This document shows, piece after piece, positions 32,572 through 38,891 of a stretch of 64,000 nucleotides of DNA. Within the stretch, counting starts at the first letter, position 1. Each line of letters starts with the position of its first letter. The position numbers and the translations under genes are program-made. Source of the stretch: Rhodospirillales bacterium (lineage in GTDB: Bacteria; Pseudomonadota; Alphaproteobacteria; Rhodospirillales; Defluviicoccaceae); NCBI GenBank assembly GCA_016793925.1, contig JAEULH010000086.1:1-64000 (forward strand), read 5' to 3'. The notes below the pieces were generated by a model. The model was not told the DNA's origin, ran no database searches, and worked only from the letters and a program-made list of their open reading frames with translations.

Positions 32572-33921
32572 ATGCTGCTCGTCCTTCTGCTGCTCCTGAG
32601 CATCGCCTTTATCATCTTCGCGACGGCCAACCTCCGCATGCATCCGTTCCTTGCGCTGCTGATCGCCGCCTTCGCCTTCGGTATTCTCTCCGGCATGCCG
32701 CTGGCCGACGTGGTCAAATCGGTCAACGACGGCTTCGGCGGAACCATCGGCTACATCGGCATCGTCATCCTGGCGGGCTCGATCATCGGCACCTTCCTCG
32801 AACGCTCCGGCGGCGCCTTTCGCCTCGCCGAGAGCATTCTCAAGGTCACCGGCGAGCGCAACGTCCCGGCGACCATGTCGATCATGGGCTTCGTCGTGTC
32901 GATCCCGGTGTTCTGCGACTCGGGCTTCGTCATCCTCTCGTCGCTGAACAAGGCGCTGACCCGGCGCGCCGGCATCACCCTGGCGACCACGGCGATCGCG
33001 CTCAGCCTCGGCCTTTACGCCACCCACACCATGGTCCCGCCGACGCCGGGGCCGATCGCCGCCGCCGGCATCCTCGGCGCGGATCTCGGCCTCGTCATCC
33101 TCTGGGGGATGCTCGTCGCCGCGATCGCCTGCTTCGCCGGCTGGGTCTTCGCCGTCACCGTCGCCAAGCGCATCTACATCTCGCCCGATGACGAACTGCC
33201 CGGGGAGGCGGCCAAGTCGCCGACGCCGGTCGCCGCCGCCGACAGCCCCGGCCCGGTCAAGTCGCTGTTGCCGATCCTGATCCCCATTGTCCTGATCGTC
33301 ATCCGCTCGATCGCGGAATTCCCGACCAAGCCCTTCGGCACCGAGACGCTCTACACCATCCTCGCCTTTGTCGGTCAGCCGACGGTCGCGCTGCTGATCG
33401 GCGTCGCTCTGGCGCTGCTGCTGCCGAAGAAGCTCGAGCGCGCGATGCTCGCGGACAAGGGCTGGGTCGGCGAAGCCATTCTTGCGGCGGCGACCATCAT
33501 CATCATCACCGGCGCGGGCGGCGCTTTCGGCAAGGTGCTGCAGAATTCGGGCATCGCCGGCGTCGTCGGCCAGACGCTGGCCGACACCCGCATCGGCATC
33601 ATCCTGCCGTTCCTCATCGCCGCCGGCATCAAGACCGCGCAGGGCTCCTCGACCGTCGCGATCATCACCACCGCCGGGCTGATGGCGCCCCTGCTGGCGT
33701 CACTCGGCCTCGACAGCGACACCGCAAAGGCGCTGGTCGTCGTCGCCATCGGCGCCGGCTCCATGGTCGTCTCCCACGCCAACGACAGCTTCTTCTGGGT
33801 TGTCACCCAGTTTTCCAACATGGATGCGGCGACCGGCTACAAGCTCCAGACCGTCGGAACCCTGGTCGAGGGACTGGTCGCCGCTGTCGTCGTCTGGGTC
33901 ATCAGCATCGGTGTCTTGTGA
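32572..33921 (+). CDS. GntP-family gluconate/glycerate-type permease
   Basis: A 449-residue inner-membrane H+ symporter of the gluconate permease family. About 11-13 hydrophobic segments are visible. The conserved segments FGGTIGYIGIVILAGSIIG (near residue 55), SIPVFCDSGFVIL (near 113) and the C-terminal GAGSMVVSHANDSFFWVVTQ (near 395) are intact. The ATG at 32572 is preferred because it matches the usual MLLxLLL start and has GGGGTG upstream; an in-frame GTG at 32533 would add 13 basic residues. The stop overlaps the next ATG (TGATG). Coupling to a glycerate 2-kinase suggests glycerate, or a related sugar acid, as substrate. Confidence 0.9.
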   Translation: MLLVLLLLLSIAFIIFATANLRMHPFLALLIAAFAFGILSGMPLADVVKSVNDGFGGTIGYIGIVILAGSIIGTFLERSGGAFRLAESILKVTGERNVPATMSIMGFVVSIPVFCDSGFVILSSLNKALTRRAGITLATTAIALSLGLYATHTMVPPTPGPIAAAGILGADLGLVILWGMLVAAIACFAGWVFAVTVAKRIYISPDDELPGEAAKSPTPVAAADSPGPVKSLLPILIPIVLIVIRSIAEFPTKPFGTETLYTILAFVGQPTVALLIGVALALLLPKKLERAMLADKGWVGEAILAAATIIIITGAGGAFGKVLQNSGIAGVVGQTLADTRIGIILPFLIAAGIKTAQGSSTVAIITTAGLMAPLLASLGLDSDTAKALVVVAIGAGSMVVSHANDSFFWVVTQFSNMDAATGYKLQTVGTLVEGLVAAVVVWVISIGVL

Positions 33922-35201
33922 TGGCGACCGAGATGAAGCGCGAGAATCCCGAAGACCTGCTGCGCCGAGCGTTCGCAGCCGCCGTCGACGCGGCCCGTGC
34001 GCCCGAAAACATCATCGCCCATCTGCCTCCGCCGCCCAAAGGCCGCACGGTCGTCGTCGGCGCCGGCAAGGCCGCCGCAACCATGGCCAAGGCGGTCGAA
34101 GAGAGCTGGCCGGGCGCGCTCGAGGGGCTGGTCGTCACCCGATACGAGCACGGCCTGCCGACCTCCCGGATCGAGGTGATCGAGGCGGCGCATCCCAATC
34201 CCGACGAGGCCAGCCAGCGCGCCGCGTCGCGCATCCTCCAGCTTGCCAGCGGCCTCGGTCCGGACGATCTGCTGCTGTGCCTGATTTCCGGCGGCGGCTC
34301 GGCGCTCATGGCGCTGCCCGCGCCGGGTCTGACCCTCGCCGACAAGCAGAGCGTGACGCGGGGCCTGCTCCGCTGCGGCGCGACCATCAGCGAGATCAAT
34401 TGCGTGCGCAAGCACCTCTCGGCGATCAAGGGCGGCCGCCTCGCCGCGGCCGCCGCGCCGGCGCCGGTCGTTGCCTTGCTGATTTCCGACGTGCCCGGCG
34501 ACGATCCGTCGGTGATCGCCTCGGGGCCGACGGTCCCCGATCCGACCACGGTGAAGGATGCGCTCGCGGTCATCGACAAGTACGGCCTCGATGTCCCGGC
34601 CCAGGTCCGGACGCACCTGGAAGGCGGCACGGCGGAAACGCCGAAGCCGGGCGACCCTCGTCTCGCCAACAGCCGCATCGCGATGGTCGCAACCCCGCAA
34701 GGCGCGCTGGAGGCTGCGGCGGCCGTGGTCCGCGACGGCGGCTACCGGCCGCTGATCCTGGGCGACGCCCTCGAGGGCGAGGCGCGCGATGTCGCCCTCG
34801 TCCATGCCGCCATCGCCAAGCACGCCGCCCGCTTCGGCCAGCCGGCGGAGCCGCCCTGCGTGCTGTTGTCTGGAGGGGAAACCACGGTGACCCTGCGCGG
34901 ACAAGGTCGCGGCGGGCGCAACGGCGAGTTCCTCCTGGCCCTGACGGTGGCGCTGGACGGCCATCCGCGGATCTGGGCGCTGGCCGCCGATACCGACGGG
35001 ATCGACGGCGTCGAGGACAACGCCGGCTCGGTTCTCCGCCCCGACACGCTCGCCCGCGCCGCTGCCGCAAACCTGGACGTGCGCGCGCTGCTTGCCGACA
35101 ACGACAGCTACGGCCTGTTCTCGCAACTCGGCGACCTGATCGTGACCGGGCCGACCCGAACCAACGTCAACGACTTCAGGGCCGTGCTCGTGACGGAATG
35201 A
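33921..35201 (+). CDS. Glycerate 2-kinase (GckA/TtuD, MOFRL family)
   Basis: A 426-residue kinase that phosphorylates D-glycerate to 2-phosphoglycerate. It feeds tartrate, glyoxylate or hydroxypyruvate breakdown into glycolysis. The N-terminal DUF4147 domain shows VVGAGKAAATMAKAVE near residue 45, LISGGGSALMALP near 120 and INCVRKHLSAIKGGRLA near 158. The C-terminal MOFRL domain shows LSGGETTVTLRGQGRGGRN near 315 and ADTDGIDG near 355. ATG at 33921 overlaps the permease stop. The pair forms an uptake-and-phosphorylation unit. Note that the MOFRL family is usually named ttuD or gckA. Confidence 0.93.
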   Translation: MATEMKRENPEDLLRRAFAAAVDAARAPENIIAHLPPPPKGRTVVVGAGKAAATMAKAVEESWPGALEGLVVTRYEHGLPTSRIEVIEAAHPNPDEASQRAASRILQLASGLGPDDLLLCLISGGGSALMALPAPGLTLADKQSVTRGLLRCGATISEINCVRKHLSAIKGGRLAAAAAPAPVVALLISDVPGDDPSVIASGPTVPDPTTVKDALAVIDKYGLDVPAQVRTHLEGGTAETPKPGDPRLANSRIAMVATPQGALEAAAAVVRDGGYRPLILGDALEGEARDVALVHAAIAKHAARFGQPAEPPCVLLSGGETTVTLRGQGRGGRNGEFLLALTVALDGHPRIWALAADTDGIDGVEDNAGSVLRPDTLARAAAANLDVRALLADNDSYGLFSQLGDLIVTGPTRTNVNDFRAVLVTE

Positions 35202-35311
35202 CGCGGTTGCGCGTTTGTGGTGCCCAAACGGGGAATTCTCTGCTACGCTGAGCGCATTCCGCTCCGCCCGCGATCCGATCCCGTTTCTTCGGACAACATG
35301 ACCACATCATT

Positions 35312-36595
35312 GTGATCCCGCGCATCATCTCCGTCTGCAACCTCAAGGGCGGCGCCGGCAAGAGCACCATTGCCGTCAACCTCGCCTGCGCCATCCGTGC
35401 GCGCACCGGGGTCGATTGCATCCTGGTCGACGCCGACCGTCAGGCGACCGCGCTCAAGTGGGCCGAAAACGGCGAACTCGGCATCCGCGTCACCTCGCGC
35501 GTGCTTCATGAGGCGAAGCCGGACGACGTCCACCCGGGGCTGATGTGGGTCACCCAGATCAGGATCCTCGCCGCCAAGAACCCGTCGGTGATCATCGACC
35601 TGCCGCCGGGGCTGGAATACTCGTTGGCGGCGGTCGCGGCGATCTCCGACCTCATCTTCGTTCCGGTCACGCCAAGCGGCGTCGACTTCCACTCGACGGC
35701 GCGTTTCATCAAGCTCGTGCAGAAGACCCGGGAGATCCGCGGCAGCAACAAGCCCGGTTGCGTTATCGTCCCCAATCGGCTCGACCGGCGGACGGTGATT
35801 TCCCGCAAGATGGCGTTCTACGAGCAGTTCGGCGAGCCGATCGCGCCGCCGATCGGCATGCGTTCGGCCTTCGTCTACGCCTTCGATCGGGGGCGCTGGG
35901 TCGGCGACATCTCGCCGCGATCGGCCGCCTGCCGGGAAATCGAACAGCTCGCCGCCTTTATCGACGGCAGCGCCGACGATGCGACCGCCGCCACCGGCAA
36001 GGCGGCGTCAGCCGCCGTAGCCGAGCACGGCGGGAAGCCAGAGAGCGAGGCCGGGAAAGAAGACGACGGCGACGAGCGCCGCGGTCATGGCGATCACCAG
36101 CCAGAGCACCCAGCGAACGGTCGATTCGAGCGGTACGCCGGCGATCCGGGCGGTGACCATCAGGTTGACGGCGACGGGCGGCGTGAACTGGCCGATAGCG
36201 ATGTTCATGGCCATGAGCACGCCGAACCAGACGGGGTTCCAGGCGTGCGCGACCATGATCGGCAGAAGCAGGGGCATGGTGATCAGGTAGATGGAGACTC
36301 CGTCGAGGACCATGCCGGCGATGAGCAGGACGGCCATGATCAGGAGCAGCGTCCCGGACTCGTCCTGACCGATGGCGACAATGACCTTGGCGGCGGCATC
36401 GAAAGCGCCCAGCGTGCTGCCGGCCCAGGCGAAGATGCCGGCCAGGGCGATGACGAACATGATGACCGCCGACGTTTCGGCGGAGTCGACGAAAGCCTCG
36501 TAAACCTCGCGCCAGCCCAGGGTCCGATAGTAGCCGACGCCGATGACGAGGCCGTAAACCGCCGCCACCGCGGCGGCCTCGGTCGGGGTGAATAG
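35312..36595 (+). CDS. Orphan ParA/MinD-like ATPase with antisense read-through tail
   Basis: The first 230 residues are a ParA-family deviant-Walker ATPase. KGGAGKST is near residue 12, LVDADRQATALKWAE near 38, IIDLPPGLEYSLAA near 93, and a normal fold end (CREIEQLAAFIDG) near 222. No ParB or replication gene is nearby, so its cargo is unknown. The frame does not stop there. It continues 196 codons antisense to dctM, codon-in-register, to a stop at 36595. That tail is Asp/Glu/His/Gly/Gln-rich and looks like antisense of membrane codons, so it is probably not selected as protein. The start is GTG. A five-codon ATG frame (35298-35315) ends on it with a GTGA overlap. Confidence 0.75.
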   Translation: MIPRIISVCNLKGGAGKSTIAVNLACAIRARTGVDCILVDADRQATALKWAENGELGIRVTSRVLHEAKPDDVHPGLMWVTQIRILAAKNPSVIIDLPPGLEYSLAAVAAISDLIFVPVTPSGVDFHSTARFIKLVQKTREIRGSNKPGCVIVPNRLDRRTVISRKMAFYEQFGEPIAPPIGMRSAFVYAFDRGRWVGDISPRSAACREIEQLAAFIDGSADDATAATGKAASAAVAEHGGKPESEAGKEDDGDERRGHGDHQPEHPANGRFERYAGDPGGDHQVDGDGRRELADSDVHGHEHAEPDGVPGVRDHDRQKQGHGDQVDGDSVEDHAGDEQDGHDQEQRPGLVLTDGDNDLGGGIESAQRAAGPGEDAGQGDDEHDDRRRFGGVDESLVNLAPAQGPIVADADDEAVNRRHRGGLGRGE

Positions 36596-37306
36596 TCCGG
36601 TTCGCAGCCCGCCCAGGATCAGCACCGGAGCGAACAGGCCGGGACCGGCGGAGAGCAGGCTGGCGAAGAACGGCGGCCGGGTTGCATCCTCTTCGCCGCC
36701 CATGTCGTAGCGTCGGCTGAGCCACCAGGTCGGCACGGCCACCGCCAGGCCGCAGAGCAGGCCCGGCACGAGCCCGGCCGCGAACAGTGCGCGCAGGTCG
36801 ACGCCGGGAACCAGGATCGAATACAGGATCAAGGCGATCGACGGCGGGATCAGAATCGCCGTCGACGATGCGGCGGCGATGACCGACGCGGAAAACGACC
36901 CCGGATAGCCGGCCCGGCGCATGGTCGGGATCATGACGGCAGCCACCGCCGCGGCGTCGGCCGGGCCGGAGCCGGACATCCCGCCCATGATCATGCACAC
37001 CAGGATGGCGACCAGGGCCAGGCCGCCGCGGCGCGGACCGACGATCGCCTGGATGAACGCAATCAGCCGAGCGGCGACGCCGGACCGCTCGAACAGGGTG
37101 CCGGCAAGGATGAACAGCGGGATCGCGATGAGCGGGTACTTGGCGATGCCGTTGAAGGTGTTCGTCCCGACGGTCGCCAGCGCTTGGATGTCGAGGCCGA
37201 CAAGGATCCCGGCGATGCCGCCCGCCGCAAGCGCCACGGCAATGGGTGCGCCAAGCGCCATGAGCAGGACGAAGACGCCAAGGAGGAGAATGTTGGCCTC
37301 AACCAT
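36008..37306 (-). CDS. dctM: TRAP transporter large permease subunit
   Basis: A 432-residue inner-membrane protein of the DctM/SiaM family with about 12 hydrophobic segments, forming the main ion-coupled transport unit. Family features include ANILLLGVFVLLMALGAPIA at the start, GGMSGSGPADAAAVAAVMIP near residue 110 and the late IGQFTPPVAVNLMV near 370. It starts 9 bp after dctQ. Its 3' end is overlapped antisense by the ParA-like reading frame for 588 bp. The normal stop (TGA, 36010-36008) and length show that dctM itself is intact. Confidence 0.93.
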   Translation of the reverse strand: MVEANILLLGVFVLLMALGAPIAVALAAGGIAGILVGLDIQALATVGTNTFNGIAKYPLIAIPLFILAGTLFERSGVAARLIAFIQAIVGPRRGGLALVAILVCMIMGGMSGSGPADAAAVAAVMIPTMRRAGYPGSFSASVIAAASSTAILIPPSIALILYSILVPGVDLRALFAAGLVPGLLCGLAVAVPTWWLSRRYDMGGEEDATRPPFFASLLSAGPGLFAPVLILGGLRTGLFTPTEAAAVAAVYGLVIGVGYYRTLGWREVYEAFVDSAETSAVIMFVIALAGIFAWAGSTLGAFDAAAKVIVAIGQDESGTLLLIMAVLLIAGMVLDGVSIYLITMPLLLPIMVAHAWNPVWFGVLMAMNIAIGQFTPPVAVNLMVTARIAGVPLESTVRWVLWLVIAMTAALVAVVFFPGLALWLPAVLGYGG

Positions 37307-37315
37307 GCCCGCATC

Positions 37316-37825
37316 TCACCGCCGGTTCGCGATGGCGGTGACCGCCCTCTGCCATAGCCGGACCATCATCAGAAGCGCCAGAACGGGGAGCCAGACCGTA
37401 TAAACCCAGGCCGGATGACCGAGGCCCGGACTTGTCTCGCCGAATTCCCACTGCTCGTAGGCAAGACGACCGCCGTAGAAGACAATCAGGCCCAGTACGA
37501 CCGTCGCCGCCGCCAGCGAGAGGCCGGCGCAGCACGATTGCCACCTGGGTGGCAGGCGATTGACAAGAACGAGGATGCGAATGTGGCGGTCTGCGGCGAA
37601 AGCCAGGGACGCGCCGACGAAGGTCATAATGACGAGGAGGACGACCGAGTACTCCTCGGTGAACGCGAACGAGATGTTGGTGGCGTAGCGGACGACGACG
37701 TTGGCGAAGCTGATCAGGCAGATCAGCGCCATGGCGGCGGCGCCGACCGCCCGCTCCAGCCGCGGTGGCGGCGGCGATGGCGGCGGCGCGTCGGCGCCCT
37801 CCTCCGGAACGCGCACGGCCCGCAC
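37316..37825 (-). CDS. dctQ: TRAP transporter small permease subunit
   Basis: A 169-residue (as called) inner-membrane protein with four hydrophobic segments (near residues 28-50, 60-80, 100-122, 142-162), typical of DctQ. The family pattern FTEEYSVVLLVIMTFVGASL is near residue 60. The start is uncertain because no ATG lies between the dctP stop at 37869 and the first membrane segment. In-frame candidates are GTG at 37825 (used here), GTG at 37816 and TTG at 37864. None has a good Shine-Dalgarno site. The Pro-rich N-terminus (PPPSPPPPRLE) is odd. Confidence 0.85.
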   Translation of the reverse strand: MRAVRVPEEGADAPPPSPPPPRLERAVGAAAMALICLISFANVVVRYATNISFAFTEEYSVVLLVIMTFVGASLAFAADRHIRILVLVNRLPPRWQSCCAGLSLAAATVVLGLIVFYGGRLAYEQWEFGETSPGLGHPAWVYTVWLPVLALLMMVRLWQRAVTAIANRR

Positions 37826-37868
37826 TGCCGCGCGCGAGGAGCGGTCGGTCCGGCGGTCCGGCAACGGA

Positions 37869-38891
37869 TCAGGGCTTGCTTGCGGCGACGGCGCTTTCCG
37901 CGCGCCCGACGAGATCCGGGCCAATCCTCCCGGCCCAGGTGTCGAACACAGGCCTGGTGGCGGCGACAAAGGCCCGCAGCTCGGCCGCACTTGGACGCGT
38001 CACCCTCACACCCATGGTCGGAAGTTCCGCTTCGGCTTCGGCGTCACCGTCGCGCGCGAGCTGGATCGAGAGCTTGCCGGCTTCGCTCGCTGCCTGCCGC
38101 ACGATCTCCTGGTCCGCCGGCGCGAACGAATTCCAGACGCGGGCGTTGACCGCGAAGATCAGCGGATCGGCAACGTAATTCCAGAGCGTCACATAGGTCT
38201 GGCCAAGCGTTTCCATTTTCGCGTTGACGTAGACGGTCAGCGGATTCTCCTGGCCGTCGACGGCGCCGGTCGCCAGGGCCGGCTTGGCGTCCGCCCAACT
38301 CATCTGGGTCGGGTTGGCGCCGAGCGCCGAGAAGGTATCGTTGAACAGCGGCGAGCCGACGACCCGGATCTTGAGACCCTGAAGATCCTCGGGCTTGCGC
38401 ACCTCGCGCTTGGAATTGGAAAGCTGGCGGAAGCCGTTCTCGCCCCAGGCCAGCGGCTCGATCCCGCGCTGGCGGATGATCGCGAACAGGTCGCGGCCGA
38501 CGTCGCCTTGGGTCAAGGCATCGATGGCAGCGTGATCAGGCATCAGGAACGGCAGGGCGAACAGGTTGAGTTCCTTGATCTGCGGCGACCAGTTGATGGT
38601 CGAACCGACGGCCATCTCGATAATGCCGTCACGCATCGCCGTGAACTCTTTCGTCTGGTCGCCCTGGACGAGTTGGCTCCCGGAGTAGACCTTCATGACG
38701 ATGCGCCCGTCGGTCCGCTGAGCGACCAGCTCCGCCCACTTTTCCGCCGCCACGCCCCATGGGAACGGCGGCCCCAGCACCGTCGAGACCTTGTATTCGG
38801 GCTTGTAGTCGGCAGCCGGTGACCGCGCCGCCGGCAATGACGCAAACACGGCGAGCATCGCTGCGACAACCAAAAGCCTGCTTATCCTCAT
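37869..38891 (-). CDS. dctP: TRAP transporter solute-binding protein, DctP family
   Basis: A 340-residue periplasmic receptor. The signal peptide is MRISRLLVVAAMLAVFASLP, ending near the PAA site at about residue 27. Family landmarks are the TMRDGIIEMAVG-like segment, FALPFLMPDH near 111, and PEDLQGLKIRVVGSPLFNDT near 163. The Arg that binds the ligand carboxylate (KIRVVG) is retained. ALGANPTQMSWADAKPALATG follows, as in C4-dicarboxylate and sugar-acid receptors. It heads the dctP-dctQ-dctM operon. A ligand such as a C4-dicarboxylate or a sugar acid is plausible. Confidence 0.93.
   Translation of the reverse strand: MRISRLLVVAAMLAVFASLPAARSPAADYKPEYKVSTVLGPPFPWGVAAEKWAELVAQRTDGRIVMKVYSGSQLVQGDQTKEFTAMRDGIIEMAVGSTINWSPQIKELNLFALPFLMPDHAAIDALTQGDVGRDLFAIIRQRGIEPLAWGENGFRQLSNSKREVRKPEDLQGLKIRVVGSPLFNDTFSALGANPTQMSWADAKPALATGAVDGQENPLTVYVNAKMETLGQTYVTLWNYVADPLIFAVNARVWNSFAPADQEIVRQAASEAGKLSIQLARDGDAEAEAELPTMGVRVTRPSAAELRAFVAATRPVFDTWAGRIGPDLVGRAESAVAASKP

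Follow-up and report, generated by a model that had tools for sequence, protein, structure and literature searches.

A ParA-like frame that reads without a stop into the antisense strand of the neighboring dctM gene is very probably the product of a stop codon lost in this lineage alone. The window (the whole stretch of 64,000 nucleotides of contig JAEULH010000086.1 that was analyzed) contains this frame as 427 codons with a GTG start and a first in-frame stop, TAG, at 36593–36595, and gene-calling software would annotate a ParA of 427 aa at 35312–36595 on the plus strand. The frame overlaps the convergent dctM by 588 bp in codon-aligned antisense orientation, as the earlier note had described and the analysis bore out. 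In the reading that we favor, the stop of parA was removed by rearrangement, substitution or indel, or is hidden by an error in the draft, translation runs on to the next chance stop, and the tail added in this way is an unselected passenger. The features of the region are collected in Table 1.

Table 1. Features of the parA–dctM region, in window coordinates
Feature	Position	Strand	Basis or remark
Glycerate 2-kinase-like gene (DUF4147 + MOFRL), upstream of parA	33918..35201	+	Pfam; NF041176 248 bits, below the cut-off of 550
ParA-like ATPase, native part, residues 1–232	35312..36007	+	Pfam AAA_31 2.7e-12, CbiA 7.8e-12
Run-on tail, residues 233–427 and TAG	36008..36595	+	Codon-aligned antisense of the dctM 3′ end
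TAG in the +1 frame	36018..36020	+	Stop list by frame; would end ParA at about residue 235 given a single-base indel just upstream
TAG that closes the ParA frame (first in-frame stop)	36593..36595	+	Complement of a rare CTA Leu codon in dctM
dctM, TRAP transporter large permease, intact, 432 aa	36008..37306	-	Pfam DctM 1.8e-100; TIGR00786 2.6e-104
dctQ, TRAP small permease	37316..37990	-	Pfam DctQ 3.3e-25, residues 90–220
dctP-like TRAP solute-binding protein	37869..38891	-	63–68% identical proteins adjoin dctQ and dctM at all six other dctM loci inspected

The ATPase and the ends of its relatives

The first part of the frame is a ParA-like ATPase, for which the Pfam profiles AAA_31 and CbiA both scored above cut-off. 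It carries a P-loop of the KGGxGK[ST]T type with its lysine (KGGAGKST, residues 12–19) together with conserved Asp motifs (D40, D42 and D96, invariant among the conserved columns of the alignment), which are the features of ParA/MinD-type deviant Walker ATPases; the P-loop and the Asp motifs go by the names Walker A, A′ and B. The AlphaFold2 model places the last helix of the fold at residues 205–219 and the end of the fold at around residue 219–220. Homology fades at around residue 220. The earlier note had placed the end of the domain near residue 230, which is too far downstream for the fold and agrees with the positions where the proteins of relatives end.

In the alignment with relatives that the earlier note had proposed, three members of the same family, at only 63–65% identity the closest ParA relatives in the searched set, stop at the equivalents of residues 225, 227 and 234. 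The wider comparison started from 109 loci, 64 of which aligned to at least residue 195 and were counted; another 44, with shorter alignments, were excluded, and one gave no hit; the 64 include three duplicates (L039–L041 are the same as L002–L004), so that at most 61 are distinct. When ends were counted with a 220-residue query, 61 of the 64 homologues alignable to the C-terminal end stopped at positions equivalent to 220–242, and the other three at 258–288. The tail is kept by none of these 64, in a searched set where the genome of the window was the only one of its genus. Several relatives, among them L003, L032 and L040 with matches up to residue 299, gave apparent longer matches into the tail, which we rejected as evidence of a shared tail; in the L003 alignment, tblastn reads through the relative's own stop. 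Retention of the tail in plasmid relatives was likewise rejected, as not one of the 1,983 plasmid records with a match reaches 80% query coverage; the ten plasmid matches listed end at query residues 209–218.

The antisense frame opposite dctM and the composition of the tail

ParA residue 233 (TCA) is the complement of the dctM stop codon, TGA, at 36008–36010, and from this point onward the two genes share codon boundaries. As the earlier note had stated, only TCA, TTA and CTA codons in dctM are able to close the ParA frame. These codons are scarce in the region: in seven local genes, CTA accounts for 2 of 310 Leu codons, TTA for none, and TCA for 4 of 152 Ser codons. With this local synonymous codon usage, the probability of finding no antisense stop in the 195 dctM codons is 0.73. 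The null expectation for openness was completed with 32 other DctM genes from the order and the class (58% to 70% GC), which are the best-scoring loci rather than a random sample and were chosen on their DctM match alone; a parA neighbor was looked for in six of them and found in none. In 18 of these 32 genes, the same antisense frame runs for 195 codons or more from the dctM stop before it closes, often through the entire gene, and the frame in the window, which shuts at codon 195, closes earlier than many of them. The open stretch opposite dctM is therefore unremarkable and is no more than chance gives; the frame is open because TTA, CTA and TCA are hardly ever used in this GC-rich genome. 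Caution is warranted in general, since in GC-rich genomes the antisense frame that shares codon boundaries with a gene is usually free of stops, and a single lost stop can thus add hundreds of residues to a convergent neighbor.

The composition of the tail is likewise unsurprising. Asp, Glu, His and Gln make up 39% of the tail, compared with 44% (SD 4%) in the corresponding segment of the antisense frames of the 32 other DctM genes, and its mean hydropathy is -1.42, compared with -1.76 (SD 0.21). The tail thus lies at the less polar end of these frames (1.2 SD low on the four residues and approximately 1.6 SD high on hydropathy), an offset that is no sign of selection, yet makes the match to DctM antisense inexact. 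The richness in these residues to which the earlier note had drawn attention is real, but it is not special to ParA: it is what the antisense of a DctM membrane protein gives, because the U-centered codons for hydrophobic residues read as A-centered codons for polar residues on the opposite strand, and the charged character of the added tail follows from the membrane protein encoded there. GC content by codon position also changes. In ParA, it is 0.625/0.491/0.901 at the three positions and in the tail 0.903/0.451/0.651, which is the dctM pattern mirrored, with the flip at around 36000. The constraint that is visible in the bases of the tail is thus that of dctM.

The tail was also considered as a domain and rejected as such, as the Pfam and NCBIfam searches found no match beyond residue 215 of the ParA frame and no fold is predicted. 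In the AlphaFold2 model, nearly all of residues 221–424 have a pLDDT below 50 (the low stretches are 221–244, 246–266, 268–278, 280–305, 307–309, 311–396 and 398–424), and the last ~200 residues average 34–45 per ten-residue block. These results bear on the reading in which the tail is a functional, acidic and disordered extension of ParA, recently overprinted from the dctM antisense strand and now under selection, for example to modulate nucleoid binding or contact with a partner. Some ATPases of the ParA, MinD or MipZ type have functional termini, and in the sequence as it stands a ribosome must translate the tail. However, in openness and composition it resembles DctM antisense frames generally, it lacks both a Pfam hit and a predicted fold, and the 64 homologues end without it, so that we consider this reading very unlikely. 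The more specific claim that the tail is translated and already selected, so that ParA, having lost its stop, would be acquiring an acidic, disordered domain at its C-terminus from the strand opposite a transporter gene, is highly improbable. The earlier note had offered either a real tail or a lost stop or frameshift; the homologue ends favor the latter, and a functional tail finds no support in features that are generic to the antisense of DctM. A tail conserved beyond the constraint of dctM would mark an overprinted coding region, and among the relatives examined there was neither a tail nor a parA–dctM junction. Retention of the tail in sister genomes would make it a clear-cut example of overprinting that extends a protein at its C-terminus.

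The neighborhood of parA and the missing stop

The partner gene is intact. Positions 1–413 of the 413 positions of the Pfam DctM profile are aligned, and the eight closest class-level homologues (at least 54% identity) align from query residues 1–6 to 430–431 of 432. The remainder of the TRAP operon lies upstream of dctM on the minus strand, and the name dctP for its solute-binding protein gene is assigned from its position. The listed dctQ frame (GTG at 37990) overlaps dctP by 122 bp (37869–37990, minus strand); the DctQ domain begins at residue 90, so dctQ probably begins at a codon well downstream, which would make the overlap an artifact of start choice. On the other side of parA, the glycerate kinase-like gene overlaps a putative gntP-like transporter gene by 4 bp (33918–33921), as in a translationally coupled operon.

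A close dctM (E ≤ 1e-80) was found in none of 10 other family genomes and in 3 of 59 relatives overall, genomes of the same order whose dctM is 66–69% identical to that of the window; this patchiness suggests that dctPQM (36008–38891, minus strand) was acquired horizontally. Both parA and glxK are absent from all six other dctPQM loci inspected, and dctM is absent from all four parA-relative loci inspected. Conserved synteny was thus ruled out as an explanation, since the relatives of parA have other neighbors and those of dctPQM are without parA and glxK. As parA loci occur without dctM and dctPQM loci without parA, the neighborhood appears, as judged from the sequences compared, to be confined to this lineage, and the stop would have gone either when the neighborhood formed or afterward, through a substitution or indel.

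According to the stop-loss reading, the native stop of parA would be expected at ~35990–36017, the point at which parA meets the 3′ end of the patchily distributed dctPQM operon. It would have been removed by the rearrangement that joined parA to dctM, by a substitution or by a small indel, or be hidden by the draft sequence. Translation would then continue in the antisense frame that is codon-aligned with dctM, as far as the first rare CTA Leu codon of dctM, which supplies a TAG at 36593, and the tail would be carried as an unselected and probably disordered passenger on a working ATPase. Near the expected end, one codon, K230 (AAG), could be turned into a stop by one substitution; either this codon or the +1-frame TAG may be the stop that was lost, as both fit the sequence.

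In one form of this reading, the loss is not biological, and a single-base indel or substitution in the assembly hides the true stop, which might be the +1-frame TAG at 36018; the protein would then have ~235 residues and overlap dctM by ~13 bp. The assembly is a draft in 123 contigs, the TAG in the neighboring frame sits exactly where the proteins of relatives end, and Palleja, Harrington and Bork (2008) put down 124 of 178 long convergent overlaps to 3′-end extension by frameshift or stop mutation (PMC2478687). Against it, codon-position GC keeps the ParA frame to ~36000, there is no homopolymer of note, and dctM is full-length across the same bases, so that an indel within its 36008–36020 segment is hard to reconcile with the sequence. 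We regard a draft error as possible but doubtful; being a special case of stop loss, its probability is contained in that given above for the lost stop as a whole.

There is no gap between the expected end of parA and the 3′ end of dctM, and this abutment would also suit an overlap that is kept for regulation, in which dctM or parA would be damped by antisense RNA from convergent transcription, the open frame being incidental. Also in its favor, a consensus scan found no terminator-like sites on the plus strand in 35150–36700, although such a scan is a weak test in a GC-rich alphaproteobacterium. The parA–dctM arrangement, however, was seen in no relative examined, so nothing suggests that the overlap is maintained, and a regulatory role is unlikely.

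Relation to known overlaps and antisense frames

Stop loss is described as an origin of overlapping genes (PMC2268670), and the parA–dctM overlap is an ordinary member of the known convergent overlaps that arise by 3′-end extension. As in category iii as set out by Palleja et al. (PMC2478687), the genes are convergent, the overlap exceeds 60 bp, one gene is longer at its 3′ end than all of its orthologues (427 aa, compared with 225–234 in the three close relatives and 220–288 in 64 of 64 homologues) and its partner, dctM, has the length of its orthologues. Unlike typical members of the category, the overlap is long, because the frame that was entered follows the codon boundaries of a GC-rich gene. 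Long codon-aligned antisense frames that result from codon usage are also on record (PMC3454372, citing Merino 1994 and Silke 1997), and the ParA frame resembles those described there in being open through the rarity of TTA, CTA and TCA in the gene opposite; in contrast to them, it is entered from a real upstream gene and has no start codon of its own. The opposite hydropathy of complementary codons, as put forward in the Blalock–Smith idea (PMC2206014), is in line with a hydrophilic peptide read from the antisense of a hydrophobic membrane protein, but the parA–dctM case makes no claim of binding or function.

The ATPase part is similar to the ParA family partition ATPases of NCBIfam NF041546 (ParA_partition), with residues 5–215 matching nearly the entire profile (positions 1–202 of 203). 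It differs from them in its score of 128.3 bits, below the curated cut-off of 180, and in the run-on tail, which is present only in the window protein. The same genome contains a second ParA-like gene (G000:C61:2079-2699, minus strand) that is 34% identical to the overlapping ParA.
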